Assembly (NCBI GenBank): GCA_029706075.1
Contig: JAINUG010000049.1
Location: 868,001-932,000, forward strand
DNA length: 64,000 bases
Source: Aldrovandia affinis
Lineage: Eukaryota; Chordata; Actinopteri; Notacanthiformes; Halosauridae
Direction of reading: 5' to 3'
Below are positions 1-63,078 of this stretch, piece after piece. The notes beneath the pieces were generated by a model, which was not told the origin of the DNA, made no database searches, and saw only the letters and a program-made list of their open reading frames with translations. Position numbers and translations under genes: made by a program. Position 1 is the stretch's first letter. Each line of letters starts with the position of its first letter.

Positions 1-7409
<7,409 letters not shown>

Positions 7410-18530: not shown

Positions 18531-21500
18531 ATGATCAGCGGAGTAAAACTAGAAAGTAACGAGGAATGGATGGCGTTTTACCAGGACGAGGTAAGGATGG
18601 TGCGTCGTGGGTCTGTCCTTCCCCATTTAATCATTTACTTCAATAAAACTAAATTGATCCAATAGTGTACTATTGGACAACTGATGAGTGCCAACTAACA
18701 ATGAGTTAATTCTCAAAAGTACTGTTCAACTAAGAATACATCCGTAAAATGGTCAAATATGTTTTATTTAGAAGTTATATTCCGGGATTTGAACATATAC
18801 TGGGGTCGTTTTTTTATGAGATCTAATTTTGTCATAATGGGTTTTTTTTATTTTAAATTTAATTCAGAGTTGTATCTAAGTTTCTAATTAACTAATTTCG
18901 CCAGCCTAAAAGTATTTAAAAAATATTTTAACACACCCTTTTAACGTTATATAACGTCATCACGGTGTATTAGGCCCATTTGTAAATTATGAATACTTTA
19001 TGATGAATTCGATCATTTAGAAGTTATTTTAAACATTTTCACATAGATAAGTTGAAGGGAAATTTGCATAATGGTTCTATGTTTTGCTGTATCAAAATTC
19101 ACTGCATATTTTATCCGTCATTTTTCAGGAAGGTTTTATTTAAATGAGATGTTAATACAATATGTTAAGACTATATAATAAATGGAGCATTTTTAATTGA
19201 AGTACATTGCAAAGTTACAAATAGTAATTAAACGAATTCAAGTTCAAAACTCTGGGAAACTCTCAGCTGAACACCTGTTATTTTGTTTTGCATAATAGTG
19301 TTTATACTTACAGCTTGATTCAGGTTGGTATCCAAGTATGTTAAATGTTAAATAGCCTACACATGATTATGTCAATTATTAAAAGAGGAACAACAAAACT
19401 GACCTATGTATGCAATGCAATATGATTAAAAAAAAAAAAGAAGAATAAGTAGGTATATTATTATTACTATTTTTATTTGTATAGTGTAGTTACGAATGTC
19501 CTAGCAGCACCAAACACAATTATAAGTTACCAAATAACATACATTTCTTCGATTTTGAATTTCGACAAGAATACCGCTCGACATTTTACGATTTTAGATT
19601 TAGTTAGAATGTTTTTTTACATTTTGCTAATTTATTAGCCATTTGGTATATGTACTTTTTAAATGTTATATTTTCCAGTGTTCATTCAGGTCTTTTTTAT
19701 TTTTGCCTTATTATAAAGAAACACAGTGAGACGAAAATGTATATCACATAATCATGGAGGTTTGCAGTAACTTATCTCTTCTTACAGGAAATGCAACATT
19801 TTATCCTATTTATTTTATCCTCACCTGAGGAAATGTTATTTTTGATTGTAAATGGGTTCGTGTTTGTCATTAAATTGCTACAGCATTTAACTTAAATAAA
19901 GTATTTTAAAATTGGGATAGTTAAACCATTAAGAATAAGAGCAACATAAATATTGTAGCTACAGCATCCACGAGGGGTTAGTCTTTATAATTGTGTTGTA
20001 ACCTAGAAATACAATGCTGAAAATATCTGACGATAACCCCATAATTTACATTTATTTAGTTAGTTACGCATTTTCATTGTACATTAGGATGCATTGTACA
20101 ATTTTGATTCAAGATGCTATAGCCACAATTTTAGAGGCGTTGCAGAAGAGAGGGCCTAGTATTATAGAAAGAGAAAATACTATCAATATATTGTCAAAGC
20201 GTTTATTTTATTTTATTTTATGTACTTTTGCAAACTCATTTTGTAGTAGCCTAGGCTAATAATCACTTTGCTCAAAATAAAAGCATGTTTTGTGTAGTAA
20301 TATCCGGCCCAGTTGATCAGTTTCTCTGTTTCAATGTGCCCGAGCGTCGGAATGTGATTGTCTGTGTGTGGTCTTGGTGAAGTTAATTGATTGACTCCTG
20401 GAATACGGTTTCTTTTCGGGTGTTTGGGGTAGCCTGGATATGACTGACAAACGACAAACGCGGGTTCATAATCACAGAGGCGTTTCTGAGTTAAGAAAAG
20501 AGATATCGGGGGAGTTCACAAGCCATAATTATAGCCGATGCCCTTTACACAACAAACCGCGGAGGACAGCGGCCGCGTCCTCTTGCCTCCTCTGTCGCTC
20601 TCTCTTTCATGGCACAGAAGAAGGCGGTCGGTGAGTGACTTAAAAGAGCCAAGTAACAAGGGCGAGAAGAATAGTAGCGAAGACAGGACAATGGGGTTAT
20701 AGGAAGCGACTGGGTGGGTGGCCCGAATAGATTTACATGGCGATATCTAGACAGACAGCTACGAGTTAATGAAATTAGGAGGAAGCCGATCAAAGGAGGT
20801 GTGCGCACAGGAATTTGTCCCAACTGCGGAAAATAGGCTGCAACACTGATGAATAATTATGGGGGAAAAAACGTATCTTGTAAGCATGATTAGGCATAGT
20901 AACCTTGGTCTACCACACGCCCACGTTTGACGATTTGCGCTTCCCAGGGGGCAAATTGTCACGCTTAGGCTCATTAAAATAGAATAACAACAATAACAGT
21001 CCGTTTCTTTGTGTACCTTCTGCTGTTTTAGGTCAAATAAAAACATAAAGAAATATACTATGTTCCCACCTTTAGGAGCGCTCAAAATCAACATTTTTTG
21101 TGCACAGTTAGGAAGAGCTTAATATAACTAAGGGAAATGACATTAAACATTTATAAAAAATAAACGATTGTAAGGGCATGAATAAAGTCAGTTACAGAGA
21201 GATTGATAATTATTGGTAAATGCTCAGTTCAAAACCGATTTTTGAATGTTCTGGATTCCTTCCTTAGTTGCTACAGGAGTTAGGGGAATACTTTAATTAC
21301 ATAAAAAACTTTACGAACCTCATCTTCCAAGTGTGCTTGTCTCTCATTGTGCTGTGATATAGCGTATAACCTACACATGTTGTCTGTCTCTGTAGGTGTA
21401 CCCTGGGGCCAATAACCTTCCCAGCAGCCTGAGCGGGTACCTTCCTTCTGGGGCCCCTTACCTGAGCGGTGGCCACACAGGTGCCGGGGTCCCCACAGGG

Positions 21501-22500
21501 GCCTCAGGGAGCCTCGGCGGCCCAGTGAACCACTTTGGGGTTCTGCCACCCCAGCTAGGATACAGCGGGGAAGGCAACGGAGGGCCGTATGGCTTCGAGG
21601 TCCCGGGGGATGAGCCCAAAGGAGGGTACCGACGGAACTTCAGCCACGCCAAGCCCCCGTACTCCTACATCTCCCTCATCAGCATGGCCATCCAGCAGGC
21701 GCCTGCCAAGAGGCTGACGCTCAACGAGATCTACCAGTGGATCCGCCAGCTCTTCCCCTACTACCGGCAGAACCAGCAGCGCTGGCAGAACTCCATCCGC
21801 CACTCGCTGTCCTTCAACGACTGCTTCATCCGCGTGCCACGCTCGCCGGACTCGCCGGGCAAGGGCTCCTATTGGGCCCTGCACCCGGACTCCGGCAACA
21901 TGTTCGAGAACGGCTGCTACATGCGTCGCCAGAAGCGCTTCCGCTGCCCCAGGACCGGCGAGCGGAAGGGCCAGAAAGAGGAGAAGAAGCGGTGACGCCG
22001 GCGAAGCGGCCTCTGTCCCATCCAGCTCCCCCCGCGACTCCCCGCGGCCACAGCCACCGCTGAGCGCCCCCAGCCCCCGCTTACCTACGTCTCCCTCTCC
22101 CCCGCTCCACTTCCACCACCACCCTCTCTCCCCGCCGTCCCTCCCCGCTTCATCCGGTCAGCGCCCTCTCTGCATATCTCCCCCAAGCATCCCTCCCGCT
22201 CCCCTATCCAGCCACAGCTCTCAGCCCCCCTCCATCCTTCAGCACCACTCTCTGTCCCTGGACCCCTGCATGCGCACCGAACCCCTCAATCACCACCCCT
22301 TCTCCATCTCCCAGCTCATGGGTGTGGAGCGAGGGGACCTGCTGCCCTATGAGTCCTCCATGGGATTCTCCAACTATTACGGCCCGGCCTCATCCCATCA
22401 CCATCATCATCACCCCGCCCCTCGGGAAGGGGCACCTTTTGGAGGGGACTCCATGTACTACCCCGGCATGTGCTCTGTGCCCATACTGAGCTCTTCGTGA
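18531..22500 (+). CDS. foxa: FoxA-class forkhead transcription factor with a frame break
   Basis: FoxA proteins are nuclear pioneer factors of endoderm, notochord and floor plate. Exon 1 (18531-18590) encodes [20 protein letters not shown] and ends in the donor GTAAGG; this is the short FoxA-type first exon. Exon 2 starts at 21396 after tctctgtag. The winged helix spans about residues 104-203 from [11 protein letters not shown] through [16 protein letters not shown] to CYMRRQKRF, typical of FoxA. The frame stops at TGA 21993-21995. A different frame, open from before 21961 to TAA-less TGA 22498-22500, carries [11 protein letters not shown] and the FoxA C-terminal motif ending [15 protein letters not shown]. 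The two parts belong to one protein, so either the sequence has an indel near 21960-21995 or an 82-nt intron (21992-22073) is removed. Divergence from FoxA1-3 ([16 protein letters not shown]) points to the foxa/foxa4 type; that paralogue call is tentative. Confidence 0.85.
18591..21395 (+). other. FoxA intron 1
   Basis: The intron is 2.8 kb and very AT-rich up to about 20.3 kb, then GC-mixed at 20330-20960. The mixed part contains a TCF/LEF-like gatcaaagg (20787-20795) and could hold an enhancer. No exon is seen. Confidence 0.4.

Positions 22501-26144: not shown

Positions 26145-26145
<1 letters not shown>

Positions 26146-26184
<39 letters not shown>
26146..26184 (+). repeat. (AC)n microsatellite
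   Basis: About 19 uninterrupted AC units followed by accaagtcc and a short (CATC)n run. Confidence 0.95.
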
Positions 26185-26186
<2 letters not shown>

Positions 26187-26194
26187 AAGTCCAA

Positions 26195-26285
26195 AATCCA
26201 TCCATCCATCCATTGTCCCAAATATTTGGTCATTTATTGTCGGGCGAGAGGAAATACCCTAACAATCCATCGCAGGGCCAAGTCA
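26195..26285 (+). repeat. (CATC)n plus LINE-like 3' fragment
   Basis: ccatccatccatccattgtc is followed by gtcgggcgagagg and aatccatcgcagggccaa, a block order familiar from the 3' ends of fish L2/Rex-type retroposons. Family not certain. Confidence 0.45.
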
Positions 26286-27261: not shown

Positions 27262-27345
27262 TATTTATTTATTATGTGTTTATGTATGAATGTATGAATG
27301 TATGTAAGTATGTATGTGTGTATGTATGTATGCATGCATGCATGT
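27262..27345 (+). repeat. (TATG/TGCA)n microsatellite
   Basis: Tetranucleotide steps of tatg/atgt with a few variants, ending gcatgcatgcatg. Confidence 0.9.
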
Positions 27346-29879: not shown

Positions 29880-29955
29880 ATCGCTTGACTGAATTTCAGT
29901 TTTATGTTTTTATGAATGTGATGGACAATAAAGTTTTCTAATCTAATCTAATCTT
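29880..29955 (+). repeat. LINE 3' tail with (TCTAA)n end
   Basis: gatggacaataaagttttct followed by repeated aatcta units is a common L2/L1-like 3' terminus in fish. Only the tail is present. Confidence 0.5.
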
Positions 29956-30051
29956 GACCTGCATTTAGGTTACTATGCTCTTACTTCAATCCCCTATTTT
30001 ACAACCCGTGTCCTCGGTTGACTGCCTACATACATCGATACAACATAACAT

Positions 30052-30205
30052 CACATATGCCATTTAGCAAACGCTTTTATCCAAAGCAACTTACAGTAGT
30101 GAATGCATACATTTTTCAGTATATGTGGTCCCAATGGGAATCGAACCCACAACATAAGCGTTGTGCTCTACCTACTGAGCCACACAGAACCACATCCAGA
30201 TTCTC
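30052..30205 (-). repeat. tRNA-derived SINE
   Basis: Read on the minus strand it gives tgtggctcagtaggtagagc, then ttgtgggttcgattccca (B box), then tgcattcactactgtaagtt and tttggataaaagcgtttgct. It is the same family as 4768-4912 and better preserved. Confidence 0.85.
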
Positions 30206-31368: not shown

Positions 31369-34300
31369 TTAATCATAAAAGTCATCAAAGTCTTCCAGGT
31401 CTTCTTCGAGGGGCATGGTCAGGTTAGCTCTGCCTGGTACCTTATCTTCTGAGTCGCTGAGCGAGTCTTGCCACAAGGCTGCGGAACACACACACACACA
31501 CACACATAGCAAACAATTTGGCAGTGCATTAGAGGTTTAGGGACATTTCCTGGAGTGGCTAGAGCCCTGAACTCTGATCACTGGTTCATGTCCTAGGAGT
31601 TATTCTGGGACAAAAGCGCAAATGCTGCTGGGGAGTTATTCCGGAATGCAAGTTGCCCACTGCAGGACAAGTCCGGCTCTGGCCGGGAGCCCTGCCAGGG
31701 AGATGGGGGAGGGTGAGCCGGCAAATGCTGAGAAGTGCAAATGGTTGGCGAGTTCCGTCTCGGAGGAGGCGGATCATTGCCTGCCTCAGAGAATTAACTT
31801 GAACTGTAGTGACGGGCAGTGAGTTTGTGGGGGAGGGCGAATTGAAAGAAATAGAGGGTATAATTGGCTACCCAATTGGGAGAAAAACGGGAAAAAAATC
31901 TGAAACAAAAGGGGAAAAAAAACACTCCAATGAAAATCCAGCTTCATATGAGAGTGCTACAGACTAAATTGCACAACTATAATCATCGTGAGATACACTG
32001 GATAATGACATCTGAGTGAATACCTGAATGAATAATATATGCCAGAATGGGGCCTCCTGGGTGGCTTACAAATACTATTGGGCATGCCAAAATGGGATAA
32101 GAGTAAAAATAGATGTAAAACATTGTTCAACAAATAAATGCTAAAATACTAGTTTAATCTGAATTTCACATTACTCTTATGTGACCTTCTTTTATATCAA
32201 ATTGAACAATTCTATCACTTCAAGTTCCTTGAATACATACATTTAGAGATAACCAACCTTTAGATTTCACCATTATTGCTTGGTCCTTCTCCCTAAAATC
32301 ATAGAAAAGAAAATTTTATTGTTAATTAATGAAGAAAAAGCTTTAGAGAGTTGAATTTTGTTTGTTTGTTGACATTACAGAGTAATTTTGTGTTGATCAG
32401 TGGAAAGAAATCCCAATTGAATAAATTTTTATAGAAGATAAAACGTGAAAAATGTTATACCCACGGTCTGTAAATTGGTACTCCCTTTCGAGTTATGGAT
32501 CTGGTATTCCTACCAGTAGAAATGTATGGATTTGTATCGATACTCAATGTTAGTCTCCAGGAACCCTGACCATGGCCTCTGAGTAGGACAAGACATAGCA
32601 ATGACAATTGCTTGATACTTTCCCCTGTAGCAATAGGTCAGTAAGTGTAAGTGTAACAGCTTGGTGTGATGAAGAGTGGATGCACAGCAGGGTGGACCGC
32701 CATATACTTCAGCTTGAGTAAAGGGGCTTAGGACCCACAACCCTCCGGTGTGGCATCCAGAACCCATAATTCACTGCTACAGTTCACTTGCCTTGTCTCT
32801 TTAGGATGGTGGGAGTGTGTGGTGTTCAGCTCTGTACTGTGAGGGGCTTTCAAACCCAATGGCCTTACTGCACTCTACAACATCTCAACCTAGGAGAGAT
32901 GGACAAAAGATGATTTGTTCTCATTCCTGCTCTCTCCTCCATAGCTTGGCATGACGGTCAGACAGTGATATATTCCATTTAGAAGACGCTGTCATCCAAA
33001 GTGGCTTACGGTAGTGAATGCATACATTTTCAATGCCATGTTCTACCTACTGTCCCCTGGTGTGCAGCAGTGGCCAAATTCACCTACCATGGTCACCTAG
33101 TCCCTCCACGGGAGTTTTATTCTAATGTGATTGACAGCAATGTGACGACCTCTTTGCCTGGAGGTTTCTGTCAATGAGCAGCCTCACTGCCACTGCCACT
33201 AGCTGATTACTTCTTTGCTGAACACCTCGCTAATCTGCGCGAAAGATTGCAATGACTTTTGCCGTTCACTTTAATGTTTAGAATATAAAATATAAAATAT
33301 AGAATTTGGAATGTAGAATATTTAGAATACAGAATTTAGCTTGAACATGTACACATGTTGGGGAGGAGGGGCATTCAGAAGATCCATTGCTCACTTCACA
33401 CTCCACAGTCAACAGTGGAATGGTGCACCCCTTAATAGCTGAATAGACCCCCTACCTCAGTGGACAGGTGGCTCTGTCCTTGGGCTCCTCATCCAGGGCA
33501 GCACGCTCCTCCTCCTCACCATCACAAGCCCTAAAATAACAATACAATATATGAGAGTCAAAGAAAATTACAGCTTTGAGAGCTGTGATAAAGATCATTT
33601 TAGCCTGAAAATGTTTGATTATGTTCTATAGAGGACATAAGAATGTGGGTTAATATTATTATACGTTTTTTAAATAGGTGATGATGGTGTAGTGTGAATG
33701 AAAGCGACTAATGCTGATATAGCATGCTTCATGTTCATTTTCACATTGAACTGCTGCTAATATGTTAGATATTAGCTGTTTAGCCAATCTTTTACTCTTA
33801 ACTCTGAAAGAAGCCCGTTTCCTGACCTTAGCAACAGAGGAGCTTTGGCCACAAGGGGGCACTGTTCCATACTCGCCGATGTTTCGATGGGTCTTTCTTG
33901 GGAGCTAAAAGAGCTTCAATATCCTCCCCATCATCACCTTCATCCTCTTCTTCATCCTCATAATCATCTGCATTCAATTTTTCTATTTTGTCATCATCTG
34001 CTTCATCTTCATATTCCTCCTCTTCCTCAATATCATCCATGCTATCCCCAGCTCCAGGTTTAGAACTCATTCCAAGATCTGCTTTTTTGACCATGTTTTT
34101 CCTGTTATATACAGAGTATACGCTGAAATTCTTTGGATTATTATTAACGTTGCAATTATCATTATTGATACTACAACTTCTATAACTACTATAACTGCCT
34201 ATAACTATTATTTATACTACTACCAATAATAATAATGACAATATAATTTATAGCTGCCATTATCCTGGGTGACTTCCTGAACCTGTTGTTATAGATAAAC

Positions 34301-37300
34301 AAGATGTATTTATTATATTCATATTTATTAAGGATCAATGATTCACATCAGATTTTTTATTTAATTGTTTCTAATAGGGTAGCATTACCTCTGTGCTGTT
34401 GCATAACATTAATTATAACCAAGAGATCGGTCTACATTAAATCATTTTGACAACAGCAGAGGGATCATATCAGATAAAACAATTCAGGTTATAATTAAGA
34501 GATTGGAGATACATTTTAAAATTAAAACCAAATGAGCTCTACATTATAAGTAAATCATGGCGTGAAGTGGACAAAGGCAGAGCCAAGCAAAAACAGGATC
34601 AGCTGCAAATGTGTGATCATCAACTGAAACTGAACAATCGACTGGAACTCTTTTCAATTATGCAAACCAATCAACAACAGGTCCAGAAATGTCACCATTG
34701 GCATATTCTCTACCCCAGCTCACTGGGAACCACTGCAATAAATGCAATATCAAAAAACATGGAGAATTATTTATCACATTTTACTGTCATGTCAAAGATA
34801 AAATATTACACTCGTTTTAAGTATTTAAAATTTAAAATTTAAAATACAGTTCAAGGTAAGGTCAGGCTAATAGTGGGATACACTAGTTTGGGTAAAAGAG
34901 ATGAAAATTAGTTTTTTGCATAGGCATTTAGGCATAGTGCATTCGGTATTCAGCATTCAGACCCCTTCACTTTTTCCGCATTTTGTTATGTTACAGCCTT
35001 ATTCTAGAATGGATTAAATTCATTTTTTTCCTCATCAATCTACACACAATACCCCATAATGACAAAGCAAAAACTGTTTTTTAGAAAGTTTTGCAAATGT
35101 ATTAAAAATAAAAACTGAAATATTACATTTACATAAGTATTCAGACCCTTTGCTATGACACTTGAATTATTGAGCTCACATGCATCCTGTTCCCTTTGAT
35201 CATCCTTGAGATGTCTGTAGAACTTGATTCTAGTCCACCTGTGGCAAATTCAATTGATTGTACATGCTTTAGAAAGGCACACACTTGTCTATATAAGATC
35301 CCACAGTTCACAATGCATGTAAGAGCAAAAAACAAGCCATGAAGTCCTAGGCACTCTCCATAGACCTCCGAGATAGAATTGTGTTGAGGCATAGATCTGA
35401 GGAAGGGTATGAAAACATTGCTGAAGCATTGAAAGTTCCCAGGAGCACAGTGGGCTCCATCATTGTGAAATGGAAGAAGTTTGGAACCACCACGACTCTT
35501 ACTTAGAGCTGGCTGTCTGGCCAAACTCAATAATCGGGCAAGAAGGGCCTTGGTCAGGGAGGTGAGCAAAAACCAATGGCCACTCTAAGAGAAAACCTGT
35601 TTTTGCTTTGTCATTATGGGGTATTGTGTATAGATTGATGAGAAAAAAAAGAATTTCATCCATTTTAGAATAAGGCTGTAACATAACAAAATGTGGAAAA
35701 AGTAAAGTGGTCTGAATATTTTCCGAATGCACTGTATAAACACATCTACACATGGTTCTGTTATTACACCAGAAAAAGGTGTACCTTTTGTCCAGTTGTG
35801 AGGTGATGATTTCATCTTCAGAGTCTGTTGTTCCCTCGCTTTCTTCTTTCCTGTTCTCTGCTGCTACTGTGCCTTCCTCCTCACCCTCCTCTCCTTCATC
35901 ATCATCGTCATCCTCTTCAACTGCATCACACTTCCCTTTCTCATACTCTTCCCCCTCCACTTCCCCTTCTTCCATTTCTCCTTCCTCCAAACTGTCAGAG
36001 CCCTCCCCTTCATCCTCTCCTTTCTCCTCCCGGCTCACATCTTCCTGTACTTCTTCACCCGCTTCTACCTTCTTCTCCCCTTCCTCCTGTCCCTCAGAAC
36101 CATCCTGGTCCAGCTCCCCCACTGTCCCCTCCACCTCACTATACCTGTGCCTTTCAGAGCTTAGAACCTCCTCCCCAACCTCCTCCTCCTCCTCCTCAGC
36201 CTGCTCCTCCTGCTCCAAGACTCCTCCCATTCCCTCGACCTCAGAGTCCTCTGAACATGATGACACTCCTCCCTCGACTGATCCCTCATCCCCGCTCCCC
36301 TCCTCTATTTCTTGAACATCCTCTTCCACATCACTCTCCTCTCTCATTGCCCCTTCCTCTCCTTCTTCCTCCTCCTCCTCCTCTGCCACTGTCGTTTCCA
36401 CCTCCTCATCCCCTTCCTCTCTCTTACCTCCCCCTCCTTTGTCCTCTCCACCCTCCTCCTCCTCACCCATTATATCTCCCTGGCTGCTGTCCTGGGTCTC
36501 CACACCCTCCTCAGTGCCTCGGTTTACCCCTGCTTCTGTTTCCACTCCTGCACCTCTTGGGGCCTTCTCCTGGCTACAACTTTCCTCCTCTCCAGCAGAC
36601 AGTGCTTTGGCTGAAGGCATAATGCTCCTGTGGATTGCTTCTTCAGGGGCTCCACTTGCATCTGTGGCTCTCACCACACCTCTGCTTGCGAGTGAGCTCA
36701 CACTGGACCCAGCTGAAGATCTAAATCCACATTGAGGCATTGCAGTTGGTCACCAAGGATCTAAGTTCAAGTTTAGAGTGTTTGTGAACACTCACAGTAG
36801 ACCTAAGAGCTCTCATACACTTGGTTGCAATTATGGTTCCATTTCTTTGCCACGGAGTGAGTACACTGAGTGCGGTTGATTTAACATCTGATTAATAACA
36901 CTCAGAGTAAGTAATTAAGACCTTATGTGAAACAAAACTAGACATCTCTGTGGCCCTCAAAGACTGAGCTTAGCCAATGTTGGGCTGAAGTTTCCTTCTT
37001 TGCTGCTTAGAATTAATAAAACTACTAAAACCATTTTGGCATGGATTTGCTCCTTTTTAAGAGACTCACTTCTGTGAAGTTCCTTCCTCTCTGTCCATCC
37101 CATTTTGCCGTATCCCTCCTTTTCTCTCCCTCTTCCAACTTCGCTCCCCAGCAGTACCCCCTCGAGGTGTCTCACTGCAGATGGAGCTACTCTCACTGCT
37201 GTCATCATGCACACTGGACAGACGGACTGCACGGATACACAGACAAGCTCAACACCACTCTGCTCTGCTCTTGAAAGTAACCTCAGGCTAATCAATGTAA

Positions 37301-40300
37301 TGCAGACCTAAAGCCGCTCTACGCTCAGGGGCTTTTTCCCTGGTTAAATAAAGGTTAAATAAAAATAAAATACATTTAAAAGCCGCTCTACAATACTTCA
37401 GTAATAACAACAACAGTGGAAGGGCATTGAGGAGTTGCCGCTCACCTGGTTTGATGTCCAGCTCATTGGACTGATCACTGGCCCTCTGTTGCCTTTTATG
37501 TCTCTGCTGACCCCGACCTCTGTCCTTGGGGGACTCTGGCCTCTCACTGCCCTCCCTGTCTCCTCTCTTAACGGGCGAGTCTCCCTTAATGCTTGGCTCA
37601 GGGGCCACTGCCATGCCCCAATCCCTAGAATCCATAGTGGGGAGCCCAGGCCAGGGACCCTGGGAGTAGGGGGCTGCAGTCTGGGAGGAAATCCACCATA
37701 CATGCCTGGCCAGCTAGGTGGGCAACCCATTATGGGGCCTCTATGGGGCTGCCCCTGGGGGAGGAGCCGGTGGGGGTCAAATGGTTGGCTGACATGGGGA
37801 TGTAGGTTGTGCAGGAAAGGACATCCAGCTCTGTTGGGGTCCTGGAACCCCCTTAGATCAGCAGGGGAATGGAGATCCCTGATATTATCGTCTTGTGGAA
37901 CATTTGACTTAGAATGTATCCCTGTCAGCCAGGAGGGGTGAGTTGAGGGGTTCCAAGGGCTGTGAGAGTAGTTTTGTGCGTAGTCTTCTTTTGCCACCCT
38001 AGTGTCTTTCATCAAGTGAAGGTGAGCTGGCAGATTAAGAGATCGCAAATGTTAGGGGAGGGCTGTGCCATTCGTGTCAAGCTGAAGGATGCTTGTGATT
38101 TCACCACTTACTGTCTCCATTCTCAGGTGGGGTGGGGAGGGATGGGCCAGGGGGAGTAAGGGCTCCTTTGGCAGTCCTGCTGTAAGCTGCCCTCCCGTTC
38201 CCCTCCTCCATCTTTCCCGGGGCCTCTTTCGAGGGCAGCTCCACCTGCTGGTGAGAGACAGCCTGGGGCCAATATGGAACAGTATGATACAGTCCTGCAA
38301 CAGCACTGCAAGTCCTAAAGGAATATTTCTGGTCATAGCCAAATTACCTGCTGTTGGCAGGATCAGGGGTAAGATCACAGGGAGGGGAGGGCTAATCAAC
38401 AGGAATCGCAGGGTAATTTACTTACCTGTAAAATTAATTAAGTATAAAACTTCAGACAAATAATGGCCGTTAGTTTTACTTCTTCCTCTCTTAGTTCAGG
38501 GTAAGCTACATCTAACTGCCAAAATAAAGGAACCACTTAAGAAAATGAGGGATACAAAGTATATTGAAAGCGGGTGCTTCCACACAGGTGTGGTCCAATC
38601 TGGTGCATCCAACCAAACACTTTCTAGGTTTAAATTTCTAATACTTTAACATACAACAAATTCCATAGTCACACTGGATGTGCACGTTCAGTGATAATAG
38701 TGAGCTAAAGCACTGTCAATCTTCCAGAGAGCCTCCATGGATTCCTTTCATCTGAGCTGTTATACCCCAGCAGTATTAATGGATCGCATGTAAGAGTGTA
38801 AGCCATGTATGTGAGAAATTTCTGATAAGACTAATCACACCTTGTCTTTGGGGGGTGAAATTCGCACCTCCTTGTGCTGAGCTGCAATCTTCTTCTCTTC
38901 AAGCTTCTGCTGCCAATGAGGGAAGTGATGCTCCAGCTTTCTCTCATATTCCACCTGTGAGAGGAGTGGGCAGAAAAGAGAAGATGGGTTGGGCCTGTCG
39001 CAACTGCTGAAACTGACACTGCTGGAGACATAACCATCAAAGTTAGTGACCAGGGCCAGTATGTATCAAATATCTTAAGAGTTACACTTATGACACCTCC
39101 TAAGAGCTTACTTTGAAGTGAAATCACTCTTCGTTTAAAGTGGTCGGTAAAACATAGTTACCAAGTAGCTCACACTTCCTCTTAGGGAAATATTCTCAAG
39201 AGTGTCTCATAAGTGTGTTTTTACGACAATCACGTGTGCCGAAATGAAAAGATTAAGATGAGGCCATCAATTGCTGAAATTGCCAAGTGGAATAACCAAT
39301 CTGCTTTTGTAAAATCTGTATTCTTTGATGGTCAACACAAGTTTCAACACAAGTTAAACAGACCCTCATAATAAAAGATGCCTTGTTGGCTAATGTTAGG
39401 CTAAGCAAAATGGATTTAAAAAGAAAACTGAATTGGACTGAGGTAGGAGGTAGACTTGAAAAAGAAAATAATTAAGTGAAAATTTAGCCCCACACAACAC
39501 GACACAAGTCAAAAAATAGGCATGGAGGCAGATTGCAGACAACAAATGCAGGCTTCGCCATTCAGAGCTTGGAGGAAAGCAAAAAAAAAACGGTACAATG
39601 TTCTATCCAAAGCATGTCAGCAAAATCTCAGCTTTCAAGAAGACAAGATCTGGCACTGGTTTGTAGTCTTATTTATTTATTTATGAGACATTTGTTTCAT
39701 ATTTTCATGAACAACAACAGTTATTAAAATGATTTTGACTATTGAGCTACAATGCTTTTATTGTAGTTATACCTTATATTCAGGTGGAGGTACTAAACCT
39801 AAACCTTTAAGCGCAGTGTTAAAATAACTTGCATCTCTGCCATAACTGCGCTACTTCTCAAAGTGGCGATATGACATCCCACACAAGATCAGTGACAAAG
39901 ATGATTCCTTGACAATCTAAGCAATAATGTTTGATTAACTATGCATCATCACAAGGTGTGCACACGTCTCCGTCTTCGCAACTGTGCCATCTTGCCTACT
40001 CCTAGCCGAGTTAAGAGAGCTCCCAAGGTCTCTTAAATACCTGTCAGTTTAAAAGTACTTTTAAGTCCAGAGAATTTTAATAAATCACTTTTATTCTTAC
40101 ATTTTGTGTAGTAGTAAAAGTCACCAATTCTTACACTTAAGTTACACTTTTTTTACTTTGAGTAGCTTGATACATACGGCCCCAGATCACCAGTCAGGTC
40201 CATACTATGGTTCAGCCTTATCTTCCAATTCACTCACTCTTTACTTTTGGTCATAGCCTACATTTTACCTCCACAATATTACATTATGCTGAAGAATTCA

Positions 40301-41765
40301 TGTTCTGATGAAAACCAAACTGCTGTGATCTTTTTTAATTCTTTTACCCCTTTTTTTTGGAATGCCCAACCGCGTTCTAAGCCGTGCTCGCTGCAACAAG
40401 CACTCCTCCAAAACATGTGATGTCAGTGGCCGCTTCTCTTCACAATGCAGTCTACACGTTAAGCCTGCAAAGACATGAGGTTGAGGGAGACACTTCATGC
40501 ACAGCTTTATACCGGCAAACTGTGGGCCCTCGATTGATCAGCAGGGGGTGCTGGTGCGTAACGAGATGCAGACAAAATGGCCAATTGAATCCCTCCCTCT
40601 CTGGAAGACGCTGCCGTCAAATATGCATTGCCCTGCGGGGCTGCAGACCACAGTCGGGACTGGCGCGGTTCGGATCTGATACCAGACCATGGGGCTCATC
40701 CACACACTAGAACAGTGCCTTAACAGGATGAGCCACCCAGCAGTCCCAAACCACTGTGGTCTTTGATTGAATCGTTCGGTAAGTTATGACATTGTTATGT
40801 TTATGCTGATTCAAACATGAAAAGGAGAGTACACCCCTTCCCCTCACTCGAATGGTAGCCATGGCAGCAGTGCGAGCAGCCAGGTCACTGAGGGTGTCCT
40901 GGGCCCTCTGGAAGTCCTGCAGCAGCTGCCAGTTTCGCACTTGGGCCCTGCACTCCCGCTCTGTTACCTCCTGCCACTGTGACTGCAGCTGCAAAGCCCT
41001 GCTCCTGTGAACAGACGAGACATAGAAAAAATACACATTCTGTCAGTACCTTAATTTGCATTCTTTAGTCTAACTCCACAGTTTTATAACAATAACAACT
41101 TTTATTCATTTCCCCAATAATTTTAGATATGACACTATTGAGCTCAAGGGCGTATGTTTCATTTCAACATTGGGGGGAGGGAGACACCATTGCCACCCCC
41201 AACGTTCAGAGCTAAGTTATCTTGCGTGGATACATCAGTTTGCATCTAGCACTAGCAAAACAGCTTCCCAGTTAGTTTGCAAGATAGCTTGCTAAATATC
41301 CAGCAAAGCTTGTATTCATTTTGTTATACAGTGGGTATAAAAAGTATTCACCCCCTTTGGCATTTTTCACATTTTATTTTCTTACTTTATGGAATCAATA
41401 TGGATTTAATTGGTATTTATTTCCACGGATTAACACAAAATACTTTAATAATTCACCCACCTTGACTTGGTAGAATACTTGGTAGAATCACCTTTAGCTG
41501 CAATTACAGCTGTGAGTATATTTGGATAAGTCTCTACCAGCTTTCCACATCTGGATGCTGCAATTTTCGCCCATTCTTTTATACAAAATTGCTCAAGCTC
41601 CATCAGGTTGGATAGGGACTGTTGATGAACAGGAATTCCACAGATTCTCAATGGGATTGAGGTCTGGGTTTTGTGTGAGGGTGTCAATGGTGTGTGTGTG
41701 TCTAAGAACCACATATGTGTGTGAATGTTCCAACGGTGTGTGTGCAAACGGAAAATATGTATACT

Positions 41766-41806
<41 letters not shown>

Positions 41807-48000: not shown

Positions 48001-51000
48001 ATACCTAACACAGTTTTATTACATAAAATGTAAGATGCCATTTACTTACTTTCGAAGGAGACAAACACACAACTTGTGCTCACTTGTAATTAAAGAGGCC
48101 TTTGACCACCTGTGAAAATGAATTTTAATCTGGCCCTAGTTGCAACAAAGTAGCTATTTGATTTTTGAGATAGCGTCCCTGTGGTTGGAGGTATGAACAG
48201 TGTGACAACTTACCCGTGTGACAACTTACCCTGCTCTCCCCTACAGTTAAATACATCATTTTAATATCATTGCACTTAACACAAATATTTACATCCTTGA
48301 TAAACAGTGATATATATATACTGATATCTCAGTCCGTTTTATAAATTGGGATATGGAACTCGAATGTCGGCACGACTAGGGGTTGTCGGCACTCTGCGAA
48401 CACCCCCGATATTCATGATATAGGCTAGCATAAGTTCTCGTTCCATGTCGCTTTAATGGCCTTGTCTGTACATTTTACACATTTGGCTTTTAGCAGACGC
48501 TCTTATCCAGAGCGACTTACAAGATGTGCATTTATACATGGTAAGATCATATACCGCACCTGTAACACAGTACTTCCTTTTCCTCGCTGCACAGCCGACC
48601 CAGGGAAAAATGTAATCGGTGATGTTTCATTCACTACTGTTTTTCATCTCATCTCCGGGACACCCCTTGTTGTAGAAATCAGCGCCATCCATTTACACAT
48701 ATAGTTTATTGGATGTAAGGTTCGATACCTGGCGCTCCGCATTTGTCCGGCATTTGTGGAATTCTTAAACCAGGCTGGATAAGATCTCATCCAACCCTGG
48801 ATAAGATGTTTCTAGGAGGTCTCAACAAAGATATTTTACATATAAAGCAGAGCTTTATATATTCATTTAGGGGGGTGCACACTAATATATGAATGTCCAG
48901 CCAGTACATAGAATATCTTTGTTGAAACCTGAAACTGATCATATCTAGTGAAGATGCTTAGAACCATGGACAGCAGGCTGTCATTGCCTGCTGGCTCTTG
49001 TTCTCCCTCAGCCCTTAATTGTTTGACTGAATTTGTTAATGATTAATTTCAGTAAGTAATTTAGCGTAGTCATTATAGTAAGTGTGACACAGCAGGGGTT
49101 CATGCCTGTGCTGGGCTCAGCCGTGTCTCCTCTCTCCCGGGCAGGTACTGCTACACCTGCGAGACTCACACCCCTCCACGCTGCTCCCACTGCTACGACT
49201 GCAACGTGTGCGTGCTGCGGCGCGACCACCACTGCGTCTTCTTCGGCCAGTGTGTGGGCTTCCGCAACTATCGCTACTTCCTGAGCTGCCTTCTATTCAT
49301 GTGGGCCGGTCTGCTGTACGCCGTGGTAATGAACGCGGAGGTCTTCATCATCATCCTGAAGGAGGGCGTCACCTTGCATAGTGTCATGCTCCTGATTGTG
49401 CCCTGGATCATGCTCGTTTCAGGTGAGTGATTCCCTCAAAGGGCGGGGCTTGTGGAGCACGAGGCCGCAGTGTCATAATAAAGGCCTGCTGGCATTCACT
49501 TTGCACACAGTGAGCACTGTCTACCATTGGTTGTTACTTGTCACATCTAAACCGGTCATCAGCGCACATGGTATGCACACTGAAAAGCAACACTCCATAC
49601 AGTTTGTTGGCAGACTTGTTGCAATGCAAAGTCCATTAAATACAATGCATATCCTGGGCTTTGCACTATAACTTGTCTAAGTGACATGTTTTGTGGTCTG
49701 AGCAAAGTAAAGAAATTGATTTGTGACCAATTCCAGTAGCTGTTTTTTGTAGCACAGTCCTATTAGTTGAGGAGATGGTGATACACTATATGGCCAAAAG
49801 TCAGTGGACACCTGACCATCACACCTATATGAGCTTGTTGGACATCCCATTCTGAAACCATGGGCATTAATATGGAGTTGGACTATGACAGCTGCCACTC
49901 TTCTTTCCACAAGATTTTGGAGTATGTCTGTGGGAATTTGTGCCCATTCAGCCAAAAGAGCATCTGTGAGGTCAGGCACTGATGTTGGACGAGAAGGCCT
50001 GGCTCGCAATCTGCATTCTAATTCCTCCCAAAGGTGTTCAATGGGGTTGAGATCAGGGCTCTGTGCAGGCCAATTGAGTTCCTCCACACCAAACTCTTCT
50101 AACCATGTCTTTATGGACCTCGCTTTGTGCACAGGGGCACAGTCATGCTGGAAAAGCAAAGGGCCTTCCCCAAACTGTTGCCACAAAGTTGGAAGCTCCC
50201 AATTGGCTAAGATGTCTTCGTATCCTGTAGCATTAAGAATACCCTTCACTGGAACTAAGGGGCTTCTCCCTGAGAAACAGCCCCAGACCATTATCCCTCC
50301 TCCACCATACTTTACAGTAGGCACTATGCATTCCGGAAGGTAGCGTTCTCCTGGCATCCGCCAAACCCAGATTCGTCCATCAGACTGCCAGATAGTGAAG
50401 CGTGATTCATCACTCCAAAGGACATATTTCCACTGCTCCAGAGTCCAGTTGCGGCGTGCTTTACACCACTCCAGCCGACGCTTGGCATTGCGCATGGTGA
50501 TGTGAGGCTTGTGTGCAGCTGCTCGGCCATGGAAACCCATTCCATGAAGCTCCCGACGCACAGTTCTTGTGCCGATGGTGCTTCCAGAGGCACTCTGTAC
50601 TCTGTACTGGTACTCTGTAGTGAGTGATGCAGCAGATGATAGGCGATTTTTATGTGCTATGCGCTTCAGCACTTGTCGGCCCCGCTCTGTGAGTTTGTGT
50701 GGTCTACCACTTTGTGGCCGACCTGTTGTTGCTCCTAGGCGCTTCCATTTCACAATAATAGCACTTAAAGTTGACCAGGGCACATCTAGTAGGGCAGAAG
50801 TTTCACGAGCTGACTTGTGGCAAAGGTGGCATCCTATGACACTGCAAATGCATAGACAAAGTCACTGAGCTCTTTACGAACCATTCTGAATTCTGAATGT
50901 TTGTCTGTGGAGATTGCATGGCTATGTGCTGGATTTTATGCTCCTGTTGGCAATGGGTGTGGCTGAAACACCTGAACTCAATAATTAGTAGGGGTGTCCA

Positions 51001-52486
51001 CTGACTTTTGGCCATGTAGTCTATATACTATACAGTACCAGTCAAAAGTTTGTGTACACCTGCTGGAAACTGGTTTCCTGCTGGTTTATCTCATAATTGA
51101 CAATGCTTTACACCGTATACATTGACATGACAAAAAACACATGAACAAAAACAAAATGAACATCAAAGAAATGTTCAAGAAAATTATATTGAAAATTGAG
51201 TCTTGGATTCCTCAAAATAGCCACCCTTTGCCGTGATAACAGCCTCACAAACACGGGCCATTCCAGATGGAAGGTGTACTCAAACTTTTGACTGGTACTG
51301 TATATAGACATATTTCAATGATGGTTCATTAAAGAACATTAAAAACATGGGTTACTGGGACATAGTGAGTGTCCGTTTAATCACCATTAACTGGTGAGCT
51401 GTCGAGGTAGCTGCTTTCAAATTTGTGTGGTTTATGAAAATTGAAAATGAATTGCCTGTTGACACAACCGTGGAAAGTCCTCTTGCCTTGGCGGTATTGG
51501 GAAATTTGGAACATCACTGTGTTCTGTCATTTTCTCATAACTGGGTTTTTGGTACTGTTTAAAAACAGCTGATCATCTCTCACTTCTGTCCACAAATCTG
51601 GCCAGCTTCTATTTGCCACACCAAAAACATAGACATGATTCACTGGGCAGCTTGTCAAACTGAACTTCCTCTAAGAACTGGGAGAGAATCTGAGGAAAAG
51701 GCAGGTGGGAGGGGTTGTGGGGGGGCTGTGTTGCTAGTAGAAACTTGCTGGGAGGCCCAAGTGACTAGTGCAGAGAAGCAGCATTGCTATTTCAGCTGTG
51801 GTGTTTGTCTGATTTCGCATTGATATTGGCCATATGCCAGTGGAAGGCTATTTCTTTGTCCCTCCATAAATGATAAATGATACATTTATTTTTCTTTTTT
51901 TTGTTGGGGGGCAAAACCTTATTTAAATGGTAAATCTTTAAATAGTGTTCTTAATGCTGGAAAATCAAGCCAGTTTGAAAAAAGAAAAAAAAAAAATTTG
52001 ATTTTCAACTTCTATTTTACTTTCATTCGTAGAAACGAGGCAGAATGGAAAGTTGTGTAACGAACTCGGGATCTGACTCTTTCTCCTCTCTTATATCTCC
52101 TCCATACCTTTTCCTCACCTCCGTGTCCTTCTGCTACCCTTTTCAACCCCCCTAATTTCACTCCTCTCCCGCTCTCAGGGCAAGTGACCGCTCGGGCCTT
52201 TGCCTTCGCCTTCATCGCGGACACGTGCGTGGTCGGCTTCCTGCTGGTGGCAGGCTTCCTCTTTTTCCACATAGGCCTGATGCTTAGGGGCCAAACCACT
52301 CGGGAGTGGTACTCCAGTCGACGGCCCTACAATCTCGGTTTGCTGGATAATGTGCGGGAGTGCCTCGGCCCGCGCTGGTACCTGTGCTGGCTCAGCCCTC
52401 TCATCCCCTCCCCGCTCCCCGGAGACGGCATTCACTTCCGGGTTACCGGGTCACTGGAGCCTGCCGGCAGCGCCGTTTCATTGTAA
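45090..52486 (+). CDS. zdhhc24: zdhhc24, DHHC-type palmitoyltransferase
   Basis: The product is a multi-pass membrane S-acyltransferase. Exons 45090-45394, 49145-49422 and 52179-52486 join in phase (891 nt, 296 residues plus TAA). Residues 19-41 form the first membrane segment. [16 protein letters not shown] (about 86-101) precedes the Cys-rich domain, whose zinc ligands run from YCYTC (103-107) through [10 protein letters not shown]. The catalytic DHHC is residues 129-132 ([19 protein letters not shown]). Further membrane segments follow ([48 protein letters not shown]). The end, [10 protein letters not shown], matches human ZDHHC24 ([10 protein letters not shown]), as do RGQTT and LGPRW. 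Human ZDHHC24 is on 11q13. Intron 1 (3.75 kb) holds a pogo element in antisense; intron 2 (2.76 kb) holds a Tc1 copy in antisense and a MITE. Confidence 0.93.
45995..46249 (-). CDS. PHD-finger frame directly after the transposase stop
   Basis: The frame continues in the same phase as the transposase, with ATG as the codon right after TAA. Its 84 residues hold a C4-H-C3 finger: CLVC, then [15 protein letters not shown], then YLCQNC, followed by an acidic end. Many fish and insect pogo-like transposases end in such a finger, so this is more likely the C-terminus of the same protein cut off by one stop than a separate gene. Confidence 0.75.
   Translation of the reverse strand: METSQSKNRLFLGNKKARVKRKLDESAADEEECFCLVCMEPFSNSRPKETWVQCVRCKKWAHDACTPGQTIYLCQNCDSEDESD
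46250..47746 (-). CDS. pogo-like DDD transposase, 498 aa
   Basis: Residues 1-60 carry a psq/CENP-B-type helix-turn-helix ([30 protein letters not shown]). Residues 75-165 resemble the second CENP-B-type DNA-binding unit ([13 protein letters not shown]). The DDE-1 core has D193 (IWNVDETGV), D302 (LLLDNHISH) and D338 ([13 protein letters not shown]), a DD35D spacing. The C-terminal part is Ser/Pro-rich and basic ([10 protein letters not shown]). The frame is intact for 498 codons, then a single TAA separates it from an in-frame PHD finger. The first codon of the listed frame is ATG ATG; either could be used. Intactness suggests recent arrival. Confidence 0.93.
48465..48570 (-). repeat. SINE tail fragment
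   Basis: ttagcagacgctcttatcca and gagcgacttacaa are the reverse complement of the V-SINE-like tail. Confidence 0.7.
49784..51021 (-). mobile_element. Tc1-like transposon, decayed copy
   Basis: The left end cactatatggccaaaagtca and the right end tgacttttggccatgtagtc form inverted repeats, each flanked by TA. The element is about 1.24 kb and lies antisense in zdhhc24 intron 2. Confidence 0.9.
49880..50884 (-). pseudogene. Tc1 transposase, broken at both ends
   Basis: The natural start MVRKELSDF lies at 50884 but the helix-turn-helix part hits a TAG within about 16 codons and shifts frame. From about 50783 the frame is open: [28 protein letters not shown], then the DDE core with [18 protein letters not shown] and [10 protein letters not shown] (Asp, Asp and Glu with 34 residues between the last two). 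Near 49890 the C-terminus is garbled and the frame reads through the inverted repeat into flanking DNA. It is an inactive member of an otherwise well-kept family. Confidence 0.9.
51033..51300. mobile_element. Short Tc1-derived MITE
   Basis: The ends cagtaccagtcaaaagtttg and caaacttttgactggtactg are exact inverted repeats with TA on both sides. The 268-bp interior keeps a scrap of an inverted Tc1 transposase (ccctttgccgtgataacagc). It lies 12 bp from the Tc1 copy. Confidence 0.85.
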
Positions 52487-54671
<2,185 letters not shown>

Positions 54672-60600: not shown

Positions 60601-61313
60601 TTATTCGTTTAATCGTTTTTGCTTGTGTCAGGTAATTGATAATAGTGTTAATGTAATTAAAGCCGCTAACTGCTGCTTGCGCAGCGCACCAAGAGCGGCA
60701 CGTGCTTGGTGACAGGTGTGCGTCAGAGAGCGCCTCGCTGTGCTAGGTAAAGAGGCCTCAGTTGTTCACTGTATAATAATAATAATAATAACAGACCAAC
60801 GGGACTACTGGGCCGGTCGCACGGCAGGTGGAGATGTGCACACGGTGCACGAACAGAAAGCAGACGTATTGCGCAGCAACATTCAATAGCCTATTCGACA
60901 GCTATTCTCGAGGAAATGAATGCCAGCCAACTATTACAGGGCACGGACTCTCACCGGGCTTTCGCGACTGAATTGAACTGCTATTTTCACATCTGTCTCG
61001 TGCTTGTATTGAACAATCAACAACAATCATGCAAACATCACAAACGTTCAAACCAACTGGATAACGTATTTATATAACGTAGCTATATAAACTAAAATGG
61101 TTAATTTTCCAGAATGTTTTCTACTATCTATGTATTACAGTAACTGTAAAGTGTACTACAACTTTTTAAAACTACCTTTATAATAGTGCTAAAAATATCC
61201 CGAGCCAGGGGTTTGGAAATATACGTGGCAGCCGAACTGGGTTTAATATCTTATCTAAGTAGGCTAAGCCCCCTTTTCGGCAGTAATCACACAGGTCACG
61301 TTGCAGTTTATGT
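54672..61313. other. Intergenic region between zdhhc24 and the insm1-like gene
   Basis: No gene is supported. It has (ATT/AAT/AAG)n at 57719-57762, a SINE tail at 58872-58895 with (acgta)n, and (AAT)n at 60773-60791. Blocks 56570-57130, 57360-57680 and 59800-60290 are of mixed composition and could be regulatory. A coding-looking stretch is listed at 58288-58441. Confidence 0.4.
58288..58441 (+). other. Possible orphan exon
   Basis: Between the acceptor-like aacacttcag (58278-58287) and the donor AAG|GTCAGT at 58441 one frame reads SAYVDVVTATSSSSLNPF and on, with G/C favoured at third positions, unlike the surroundings. I recognise no family and see no partner exon. Confidence 0.2.
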
Positions 61314-61319
61314 TTTATT
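61314..61319 (-). terminator. Poly(A) signal of the insm1-like gene
   Basis: TTTATT on the plus strand is AATAAA on the minus strand, about 475 bp after the stop codon. Confidence 0.5.
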
Positions 61320-61791
61320 GCAGTAAATAAGCAAACACATGATAATACAAAAGTACAAAATTCGATTTGGTGATTTCATTCTAACACACACGCAACGTTC
61401 AAAACAAGAGCTCTCGCTGGACAGTTTGTTTTCAGCTTACGTACGTAATGAATGCATTTCAACCATACTATAAAAAGCAGCAAATAAGATCCGTACAAAA
61501 GGCCATAAATAAATAAATATAATTTAACATGTATCCCCTTTGAGGAAAACATACGCAAAGACAAACACATACACAATACATTTATAAGGCTAAGAGGCTA
61601 GACAGATTTGGATGCTTAATTTATATTTACTTTTGTGTTAATAGGCAAATGTTTGTAAATGTCCCAAACACAACAGTACAAACTGAGAAAACAATCTCTG
61701 TGAAGACGCGAGGAAAGTTTTCGATTGAGGCAAAAGCAAGTGGAAGAATCTTCACAGTAATTTTGGTAACTCAGGAGTGTTTTTCCAGTTG

Positions 61792-63078
61792 TCAATCCGT
61801 AAGAGACAGTAAAATAACCTGCCTGCTTTCCGTTGGGTGACATTTGTTGATGTGTCTCGTCAGGCCAGGTGAGGAGAAAAAATTCTCGCCACAGAATCTG
61901 CAAGGGTACACCTCGCCGACCCCAGTGACTGCTGCCGCGGCAGAGTCCTTCCCGAGGTACACAGGGCCAGATTCGATTGCGTTCGGTCTTGCCTTCTTCA
62001 CTGTGGAATGTGTGCTCTTTTGCTGCAAACTGCTCGCCTGCCTGTTGTGTAGTGCCAGGTGTTTCCTCAAGTACGCTTGTCGCCTGAATTTCTTGCAACA
62101 TTGCGGACAGTCGAACGTCATCTCCTCTTCGGAACCAGAGTCGGAGAGCTGCGGAGAAGGTGTGCTTGCTTCTCTGCTGTTAACCCCATGGCCCTGGGTG
62201 ACTGGTAGATGGGCAGACTGGGTGTCCTCGCGTTCGGGGGAGCTGCAGTTGGGATGCGCGCTCCTTGGCTTGTGCCAGCGCCGATGCGAAGCCAGGTTGG
62301 CTGGACAGCTGAAGACTTTATCGCATTCAGTGCAGCGGTACTCGACCCTAACTATTCGGGAGCACTTGTGCTGCGCTAAGGTTAGGGGGTCCGAGTATCG
62401 CTCCCTGCAGAGTTGGCAAATAAACTCTCCAAGGGGGCTGTTGGACCGCGGCTTGGCATCCTCATCTGGGCTTTCTTTGATCCGCAGCCCAAGGACTGGC
62501 GATGTAGTGACCTCATCCCGGTATACCTGTTTTTTCTCTGCAGGAGTGGAACTTGAGGGCTTCAGCTTTTTTGGGTTCGCATGCTTGGCTTTGGTGTTTG
62601 AGGAGGCGGGTCGCTTCACAGCGGCAGCAACTGACGCGCTGCACATGGAACCCAGTTTTGTGGTCATTTCTGCCAAAGAGGGAATGAAAGTCATTGGTGA
62701 ACCGTTAATGGTCAGGCTTGGTTCTGGAAAGGATTCAGCTTGAACGGGAGAGCTGGAGTTACGCTTTCGGTCAAGGCAGTCCCCCGAAGGACAGTGCTGG
62801 GGGTACTCTGCGATTGCAGGCCGGTTTGGACTCAGGGCCGGAGCGCATTGAGCTTCGGGCATTCCTCCAAATCTCACCCTACTCTGTATGCTTTGAAGGT
62901 AGCTGCTGCAAACGGATGACAAGGTCGCGGTGCTGCCCTGTGTTCTGTCTGTAGTGAAAGGCATGGTTGAGGCAAAGACGGGTTCTTGGAAACTTTGCGA
63001 TGACGAACAATCCTCTCTCACTCTGTAGGAGACGGCACCAGCCTTTCTACTGCGCTTTACCAAAAAACCCCGTGGCAT
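61792..63078 (-). CDS. insm1: INSM1-type SNAG zinc-finger repressor, intronless
   Basis: INSM proteins are nuclear repressors that drive neuroendocrine and late neuronal progenitor differentiation. The ATG at 63076-63078 starts the SNAG motif MPRGFLVKRSRK, followed by VSYRVRE as in human INSM1. The 428-residue frame has no intron, as in the family. EVTTSPVLGLRIKE (189-202) and PLGEFICQLC (215-224) are INSM1 signatures. Fingers: about 219-240 (C2HC-like, ending HKC), 248-269 (YRCTECDKVF...HRRWH), 322-344 (FDCPQCCKKF...HLALH) and 391-414 (YPCRFCGENF...HINKCH). Human INSM1 has five; its fourth (CPVCGESF) has no match here between 345 and 390. The C-terminus RQVILL matches. The open frame extends 81 codons upstream of the ATG without stop, but SNAG must be N-terminal, which fixes this start. 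Confidence 0.92.
   Translation of the reverse strand: MPRGFLVKRSRKAGAVSYRVREDCSSSQSFQEPVFASTMPFTTDRTQGSTATLSSVCSSYLQSIQSRVRFGGMPEAQCAPALSPNRPAIAEYPQHCPSGDCLDRKRNSSSPVQAESFPEPSLTINGSPMTFIPSLAEMTTKLGSMCSASVAAAVKRPASSNTKAKHANPKKLKPSSSTPAEKKQVYRDEVTTSPVLGLRIKESPDEDAKPRSNSPLGEFICQLCRERYSDPLTLAQHKCSRIVRVEYRCTECDKVFSCPANLASHRRWHKPRSAHPNCSSPEREDTQSAHLPVTQGHGVNSREASTPSPQLSDSGSEEEMTFDCPQCCKKFRRQAYLRKHLALHNRQASSLQQKSTHSTVKKARPNAIESGPVYLGKDSAAAAVTGVGEVYPCRFCGENFFSSPGLTRHINKCHPTESRQVILLSLTD

Follow-up and report, generated by a model that had tools for sequence, protein, structure and literature searches.

The genome of the halosaurid fish Aldrovandia affinis carries a FoxA gene, a kizuna (KIZ) paralogue and an intronless INSM gene with four zinc fingers packed into 45 kb, adjoining kat5, rnaseh2c and a zdhhc24-type gene. 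They lie in a stretch of 64,000 nucleotides, here called the window (assembly GCA_029706075.1, contig JAINUG010000049.1, or C2011; bases 868001-932000). All three are extra family members, separate from the conventional copies in the same genome, and they share their order and strands with the foxa2b locus of this fish. A preliminary description, made from the letters of the DNA, had reported the three genes together within 45 kb, and all three were found at that place. In our judgement it is nearly certain that the INSM-KIZ-FOXA copy in the window is real and separate.

Results

Order and strands of the three genes

Searches covered 1.22 Gb in 2576 contigs. The references for KAT5, RNASEH2C, Xenopus FoxA4 and human FOXA2, FOXA3, INSM2 and KIZ are approximate sequences. 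On contig C458, insm1b (+, 534.6 kb) is followed by kiz (+, 834-871 kb), pax1b (+, 1038 kb) and foxa2b (-, 1246.8 kb). On C924 the corresponding series is insm1a (+, 1256.7 kb), xrn2 (about 1409 kb), an nkx2-type homeobox gene (about 1449 kb), pax1a (+, 1520 kb) and foxa2a (-, 1683.9 kb). We take this foxa2-kiz-insm1 block to be that of human 20p11. When the window is reversed, it reads INSM (+), KIZ (+), FoxA (-). This reproduces the arrangement of insm1b, kiz and foxa2b on C458 in both order and strand, as expected of a sister block of those of FOXA2 and FOXA1. The likeness thus extends to three families, their order and their relative strands, and in part to C924 with insm1a and foxa2a. The differences are in size and content. 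The window set spans 45 kb, whereas the C458 block takes up about 712 kb and that of C924 427 kb. Searches with XRN2, the NKX2 homeobox and the paired box gave no match within the window at an expect value (E) of 1; pax1 is present on C924 and C458, and xrn2 and the nkx2-type gene are both on C924. Genome-wide, the paired-box matches included pax1 on C924 and C458 and a pax9-type gene on C2267, with nothing on C2011.

Three related genes with shared order and strands therefore point to block duplication, and other explanations are hard to sustain; a chance cluster was ruled out by the match in order and strands to the foxa2 blocks. The preliminary description had distinguished the window from the FOXA2 locus itself and had noted that absence of foxa2, insm1 and kiz elsewhere in the genome would speak against this. 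All of them are present on other contigs, and the grouping of the window FoxA with foxa2 is rejected (below), so the distinction holds.

As a separate observation, foxa2, insm1 and pax1 are retained in duplicate on C924 and C458, and kiz was found on C458 only. A search of 200 kb on C924 (1258-1458 kb) did not find it there; a 7.5-kb run of N remains in that stretch.

The three genes consist of the following parts:

18531..18590, plus strand: FoxA exon 1, with donor GTAAGG, read directly
21396..22500, plus strand: FoxA exon 2, with the forkhead (Pfam E 2e-38)
31369..31478, minus strand: KIZ-like last exon (ALWQDSLSDSEDKVPGRANLTMPLEEDLEDFDDFYD and stop), C-terminal match to the approximate human KIZ and to the fish kiz of C458
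33873..34101, minus strand: KIZ-like acidic exon (KNMVKKADLG...DIEALLAPKK), open frame whose start phase, by reading, agrees with the preceding exon
35785..36720, minus strand: KIZ-like long acidic exon, open frame, no Pfam match, by reading in phase with the exon before it
37070..37226, minus strand: KIZ-like exon VRLSSVHDDSSESSSICSETP, open frame and splice phases by reading
37446..38026, minus strand: KIZ-like region whose start and end are in different frames, joinable by a small internal intron
38112..38244, minus strand: KIZ-like exon VELPSKEAPGKMEEGNG, open frame and splice phases by reading
38868..38954, minus strand: KIZ-like exon VEYERKLEHHFPHWQQKLEEKKIAAQHKE, open frame and splice phases by reading
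40848..41004, minus strand: KIZ-like coiled-coil exon (exon 2), with a homologous exon in the kiz gene of C458
43335..43426, minus strand: first coding exon of the KIZ-like gene (MASWWDGGRPGG...), with its ATG and splice phase assigned by reading
61792..63078, minus strand: INSM-type gene, single exon, with SNAG-like N-terminus MPRGFLVKRSRK, four zinc fingers and C-terminus LLSLTD

The FoxA gene

A genome search with the forkhead exon of the window scored 105 candidates and yielded 41 matches that passed E 1e-15. After the window itself, the four top matches, named by their forkheads and C-termini, are foxa2a (C924), foxa2b (C458), foxa1 (C646) and foxa3 (C224). Identity of the window forkhead with these four is 78.6-80.4%; it reaches 81.7% with human FOXA1 and FOXA2 and falls to 62-63% with two FoxB proteins of the fish. 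In comparison, foxa2a and foxa2b have forkheads 98% identical to each other and each 98% to human FOXA2, and foxa1 is 96% identical to human FOXA1. The forkhead is thus diverged from FoxA1-3, as had been described: 79-82% identity to six FoxA sequences against 98% within the foxa2 pair.

Approximately unbiased (AU) tests rejected a grouping of the window FoxA with the FOXA2 clade (p 0.034), with fish foxa2 alone (p 0.008) and with FoxA1 (p 0.015). By these tests it is not a strict FoxA2 orthologue, and two other foxa2 genes exist in the genome. In a tree of 11 rows it joins the approximate Xenopus FoxA4 (support 56/38), a join flagged as the meeting of two long branches. The window and this Xenopus sequence also have in common a RRN.SHAK flank, a VKLE start and a PILSS end. 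The eh1 motif of the window, FSISQLMG, has Q as in Xenopus FoxA4a and FoxA4b, which read FSITQLMS; the available text of PMC1939712 gives N instead of Q for FoxA1, FoxA2 and FoxA3. The window FoxA belongs to a fish that also carries foxa3. We regard it as probably of the FoxA4 type, an identity with weak support in the tree.

The features that place a gene in FoxA are all present: a forkhead near FOXA1, FOXA2 and FOXA3, a C-terminal eh1-like motif and the conserved end. These features do not share one frame. The forkhead frame of exon 2 ends in ...KGQKEEKKR, where it meets a stop at 21993. The eh1-like FSISQLM and the end SVPILSSS belong to the C-terminal half, which lies in the +1 frame relative to the forkhead. 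The GT at 21992 is the sole GT within 21931-21995, and in-frame acceptors downstream of it give introns of 73, 82, 196, 220 or 226 nucleotides. The frame break is either a one-base error or change, or a small intron. The foxa1, foxa2a, foxa2b and foxa3 genes of the same genome have open frames of 410-431 codons. Elsewhere in the genome (C2034:2514471-2514713), a forkhead match interrupted by two stops may be a forkhead pseudogene.

The KIZ-like gene

The KIZ-like gene occupies the minus strand, with exons between 43426 and 31369 and a model that is partial between 33873 and 31478. A frameshift near 37700 was considered and found unnecessary, as a small intron can join the two frames. Four of its open frames were compared with Pfam and matched no family, and the first three exons found no second copy in the genome (three of five matches were the window itself, and the other two had E 1.7 and 5). 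The approximate human KIZ gave three stretches in the genome search, each of them lying between insm1b and foxa2b on C458 (E 0.001, 0.04 and 1.35) and none in the window, where its best E was 2.2 in a direct comparison, no real match. Because this reference missed the window, membership in the family was tested through the fish's own kiz exons.

Aligned ungapped and anchored at the 3´ end, the coiled-coil exons of the window and of C458 kiz score 50, with 12 of 52 residues identical. This score was reached by 0 of 100000 shuffles (maximum 37), and of the ungapped offsets tried the next best scores 4; the register had been spotted by eye before the shuffle test. Both exons end in phase 0. The window exon starts in phase 2, and that of C458 does too with the first of its two candidate acceptors. 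In both genes the last exon begins in phase 1 by reading and ends in FYD, and the C-terminal score of the window gene was reached by 0 of 5000 shuffles against the approximate human KIZ and by 2 of 5000 against fish kiz. The corresponding human KIZ exon scores 51 against the window exon at its best offset, without shuffles at that offset; two residues out of register it scores -49, reached by 88704 of 100000 shuffles.

Homology to KIZ (also PLK1S1) thus rests on the coiled-coil exon and on a C-terminus of the form W..(D/E)S... ending in FYD, both of which the window gene possesses. It differs from KIZ in its long acidic middle exons, at 33873..34101 and 35785..36720, which bear out the acidic block of the preliminary description, and in being missed by searches with the approximate human KIZ. 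The KIZ label given there is therefore sustained through the fish kiz exons; searching the window with the human sequence did not yield it. On sequence grounds the gene is most likely a second KIZ paralogue.

The INSM gene

The INSM gene of the window is one open frame of 428 codons that starts MPRGFLVKRS and matches human INSM1 (PDB 3zms) with E 2e-81. Aligned with the four other INSM genes of the genome, it has the SNAG-like N-terminus and the zinc fingers of the family. With INSM1 and INSM2 it shares the SNAG-like start, a DEVTTSPVLGL motif and fingers 1-3 and 5; it differs from them in lacking the MPVRPxC C-terminus and finger 4. That finger is present in human INSM1 and in fish insm1a and insm1b, so the window gene is without the five fingers of INSM1 and has four, as had been noted.

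The genome search scored 98 INSM candidates (935 at first look), and its 8 matches at E 1e-6 come from five places, namely the window and contigs C458, C924, C1224 and C1823. The genes on C458 and C924 are of the insm1 type and share their contigs with foxa2b and foxa2a, respectively. The C1224 and C1823 genes are insm2-type; they group with support 100/99 in a six-row tree, and C1224 groups with an approximate human INSM2 with 99/99. The insm2-type gene at C1823:5467834-5468646 is a truncated one from which the last finger region is gone; its partner on C1224 is complete.

In the six-row tree, human and fish INSM1 come together with the window gene outside (73/85, a weak value). When the approximate human INSM2 replaces C1823, the window gene is still outside INSM1 and the support falls to 48/48. 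Joining the window gene to C1224 alone was rejected (p 0.0004); in the six-row tree, joining it to insm1a alone gave p 0.065 and to insm1b alone p 0.19. By its position in the best tree, the gene is tentatively assigned to a third INSM type, an assignment with weak support.

Neighbouring genes and other features

The gene order in the window is kat5 (+), rnaseh2c (-), FoxA (+), KIZ-like (-), a DHHC gene (+) and INSM (-). The remaining features are:

1246..7406, plus strand: the 3´ part of KAT5, covering the zf-MYST and MYST acetyltransferase exons up to the C-terminus; the gene start lies before the window
11000..11587, minus strand: RNASEH2C, three exons; tblastn with the approximate human RNASEH2C E 5e-14, 43-45% identity
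46250-47752, minus strand: pogo/Tigger-type transposase, open frame of 500 amino acids with DDE_1 and HTH_Tnp_Tc5, situated between the KIZ-like gene and the DHHC gene
49065..52486, plus strand: exons of a ZDHHC24-type palmitoyltransferase (Pfam DHHC E 2e-25)
4076-4129, 30054-30107 and 48480-48532: three 3´ ends of UnaL2 long interspersed elements
4771-4832: tRNA-like stretch, probably derived from a short interspersed element

KAT5 is identified by Pfam zf-MYST (E 7e-23) and by six aligned pieces in a tblastn search with the approximate human KAT5 (E 9e-142). The name ZDHHC24 is our presumption from a C-terminal motif. We take KAT5, RNASEH2C and ZDHHC24 to belong to human 11q13. The preliminary description had the three genes next to 11q13-type genes, and KAT5, RNASEH2C and a DHHC gene are indeed there, with the ZDHHC24 name and the 11q13 location being presumed.

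Two further open frames were named by eye. One is Tc1-type transposase-like, of 394 amino acids, at 49677-50861 (-) within the DHHC gene region; the other is THAP-domain-like, at 3638-4021 (-), for which Pfam gave no match at E 0.01. The UnaL2 ends, the pogo-type transposase and the Tc1-like frame, together with the duplicated foxa2, insm1 and pax1, agree with a ray-finned fish and probably with a teleost. Inspection by eye of 60 open frames in 52.5-61.7 kb of the window revealed no recognisable gene.

Discussion

We propose that the window represents a compacted ancient INSM-KIZ-FOXA block, separate from the two foxa2 copies, foxa1, foxa3 and the insm2-type genes. The early vertebrate duplications (the two rounds, or 2R) would have produced it as the chromosome-11q13-type partner of the blocks on human chromosome 20 (FOXA2) and chromosome 14 (FOXA1). 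Intervening genes would then have been lost and the block would have shrunk to 45 kb. It would have been kept as a single set even though its neighbour kat5 has a second copy. Its FoxA would be of the FoxA4 type known from amphibians, its INSM a third and its KIZ a second paralogue. An origin in the 2R duplications appears to us quite likely. We are somewhat more reserved about the complete proposal, which we nevertheless favour: that a chromosome-11-type FOXA-KIZ-INSM block survives in fishes, and that FoxA4, rather than being specific to amphibians, is a separate ohnologue that coexists with foxa3, together with a second KIZ and a third INSM.

The link to chromosome 11 rests on the presumed human positions of the window neighbours and not on direct linkage in this fish. 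The second KAT5 copy, on C1765, is 93% identical over 91 residues, and the genome searches gave no FoxA, INSM or KIZ match on that contig; the window set has therefore lost its sister, if the KAT5 pair dates from the teleost duplication. Paralogons have been described that comprise the loci of CD93/thrombomodulin on chromosome 20 (with FOXA2 and OVOL2), CLEC14A on chromosome 14 (with FOXA1 and FOS) and CD248 on chromosome 11 (with OVOL1 and FOSL1), with no FOXA named at the CD248 locus in the portions of text available (PMC9167495). Two CD248-like matches on C458, with 36% identity, are probably thrombomodulin and CD93, which fits a foxa2 contig.

Several observations weigh against our proposal. 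The OVOL-type genes are on C1236 and C1770 and the best CD248 matches on C1978 and C2000, with none on C2011, although these are contigs and not chromosomes. The join of the window FoxA with Xenopus FoxA4 is weak and unites two long branches, the AU test leaves a grouping with FoxA3 unrejected (p 0.44), and axolotl FoxA4 has N rather than Q in its eh1 motif (in the part of PMC1939712 available). Counts of group-unique states in the window FoxA (19 of 101 for FoxA4, 7 of 22 for FoxA3, 3 of 18 for FoxA2 and 0 of 2 for FoxA1) do not favour FoxA4, and many of these states sit in poorly aligned flanks. The window INSM as a duplicate of INSM1 specific to fishes is unrejected: its grouping with insm1a and insm1b gave p 0.20, or 0.43 without C1823 and 0.40 with the approximate human INSM2. 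The break in the FoxA frame could mean decay. Finally, the comparison covered this one fish genome, and several references (Xenopus FoxA4, human FOXA2 and FOXA3, INSM2 and KIZ) were approximate. Of the earlier reading as a third or fourth ohnologue set, the separate copy of the block is thus well founded and the identity with FoxA4 is less so; similarly, a position outside the orthologues of FOXA2 and INSM1 was borne out for FoxA and has weak support for INSM.

A later segmental duplication of the foxa2-kiz-insm1 block in the fish lineage, relocated beside kat5 and followed by fast divergence, would account for the exact match in order and strands and for the long branches of the window FoxA and INSM, and the tests do not reject an INSM derived from INSM1. 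We consider it improbable, as the AU tests reject the window FoxA both with fish foxa2 and with the FOXA2 clade, as foxa2a and foxa2b have remained 98% identical when the window FoxA is only 79-80% identical to either, and as the window INSM keeps the MPRGF start of human INSM1 and fish insm2, whereas both fish insm1 copies read MPKGF. It is more improbable still that the window FoxA is a second foxa3 copy that landed near unrelated INSM and KIZ duplicates. The unrejected FoxA3 grouping and the FoxA3-unique states would agree with this, but independent events would have to rebuild the order and strands of INSM, KIZ and FOXA by chance, and the forkhead, at 79% identity to fish foxa3, is no nearer to it than to the others. 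Neither INSM nor KIZ is known among the neighbours of human FOXA3.

An ancient block whose FoxA, and perhaps KIZ-like gene, is now a pseudogene would be compatible with our proposal. The stop and the frame change 3´ of the forkhead suggest it, and base errors look uncommon in such genes because the four other FoxA frames are open; moreover, one of the two insm2-type genes, that on C1823, is truncated. Set against this, the C-terminal half of FoxA still ends in the eh1-like and SVPILSSS motifs, so that any break is recent, the GT at 21992 permits in-frame introns of 73 or 82 nucleotides, the INSM frame is fully open, and the frame change in the KIZ-like gene may be an intron. On balance we regard a pseudogene as unlikely, less so than the two preceding alternatives. 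If the genes of the proposed ancient block are functional, the FoxA would bind DNA through its forkhead and, like FoxA4 in the frog midline, use an eh1-like motif for Groucho, the INSM may recruit repressors through its SNAG end, and the KIZ paralogue is predicted to be a centrosomal coiled-coil protein.

According to the text available of PMC4208771, foxA4 has been isolated from amphibians only and not from fishes, and foxA3 has never been found in Xenopus. The accessible part of PMC7347838 mentions FOXA4.S only as a frog gene. Among the titles and abstract openings listed in our literature search, no paper reported FoxA4 from a fish, a third INSM gene or a second KIZ gene. The window genes may already figure in public annotation. 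INSM annotation is known to be error-prone: insm2 genes of sterlet and paddlefish are filed under insm1 names (PMC10982350, in the part available); the preliminary description had suspected such misfiling of the INSM and KIZ paralogues.

In conclusion, we have identified a separate INSM-KIZ-FOXA block in the genome of A. affinis. The distribution of foxA3 and foxA4 as given in the available text of PMC4208771 leaves open whether FoxA4 is the frog substitute for FoxA3. This question becomes directly testable in a fish that has foxa1, foxa2 and foxa3 together with a fourth FoxA whose neighbourhood is FOXA2-like. The extra INSM and KIZ genes predicted here would be of relevance to endocrine, neural and centrosome studies in fishes.

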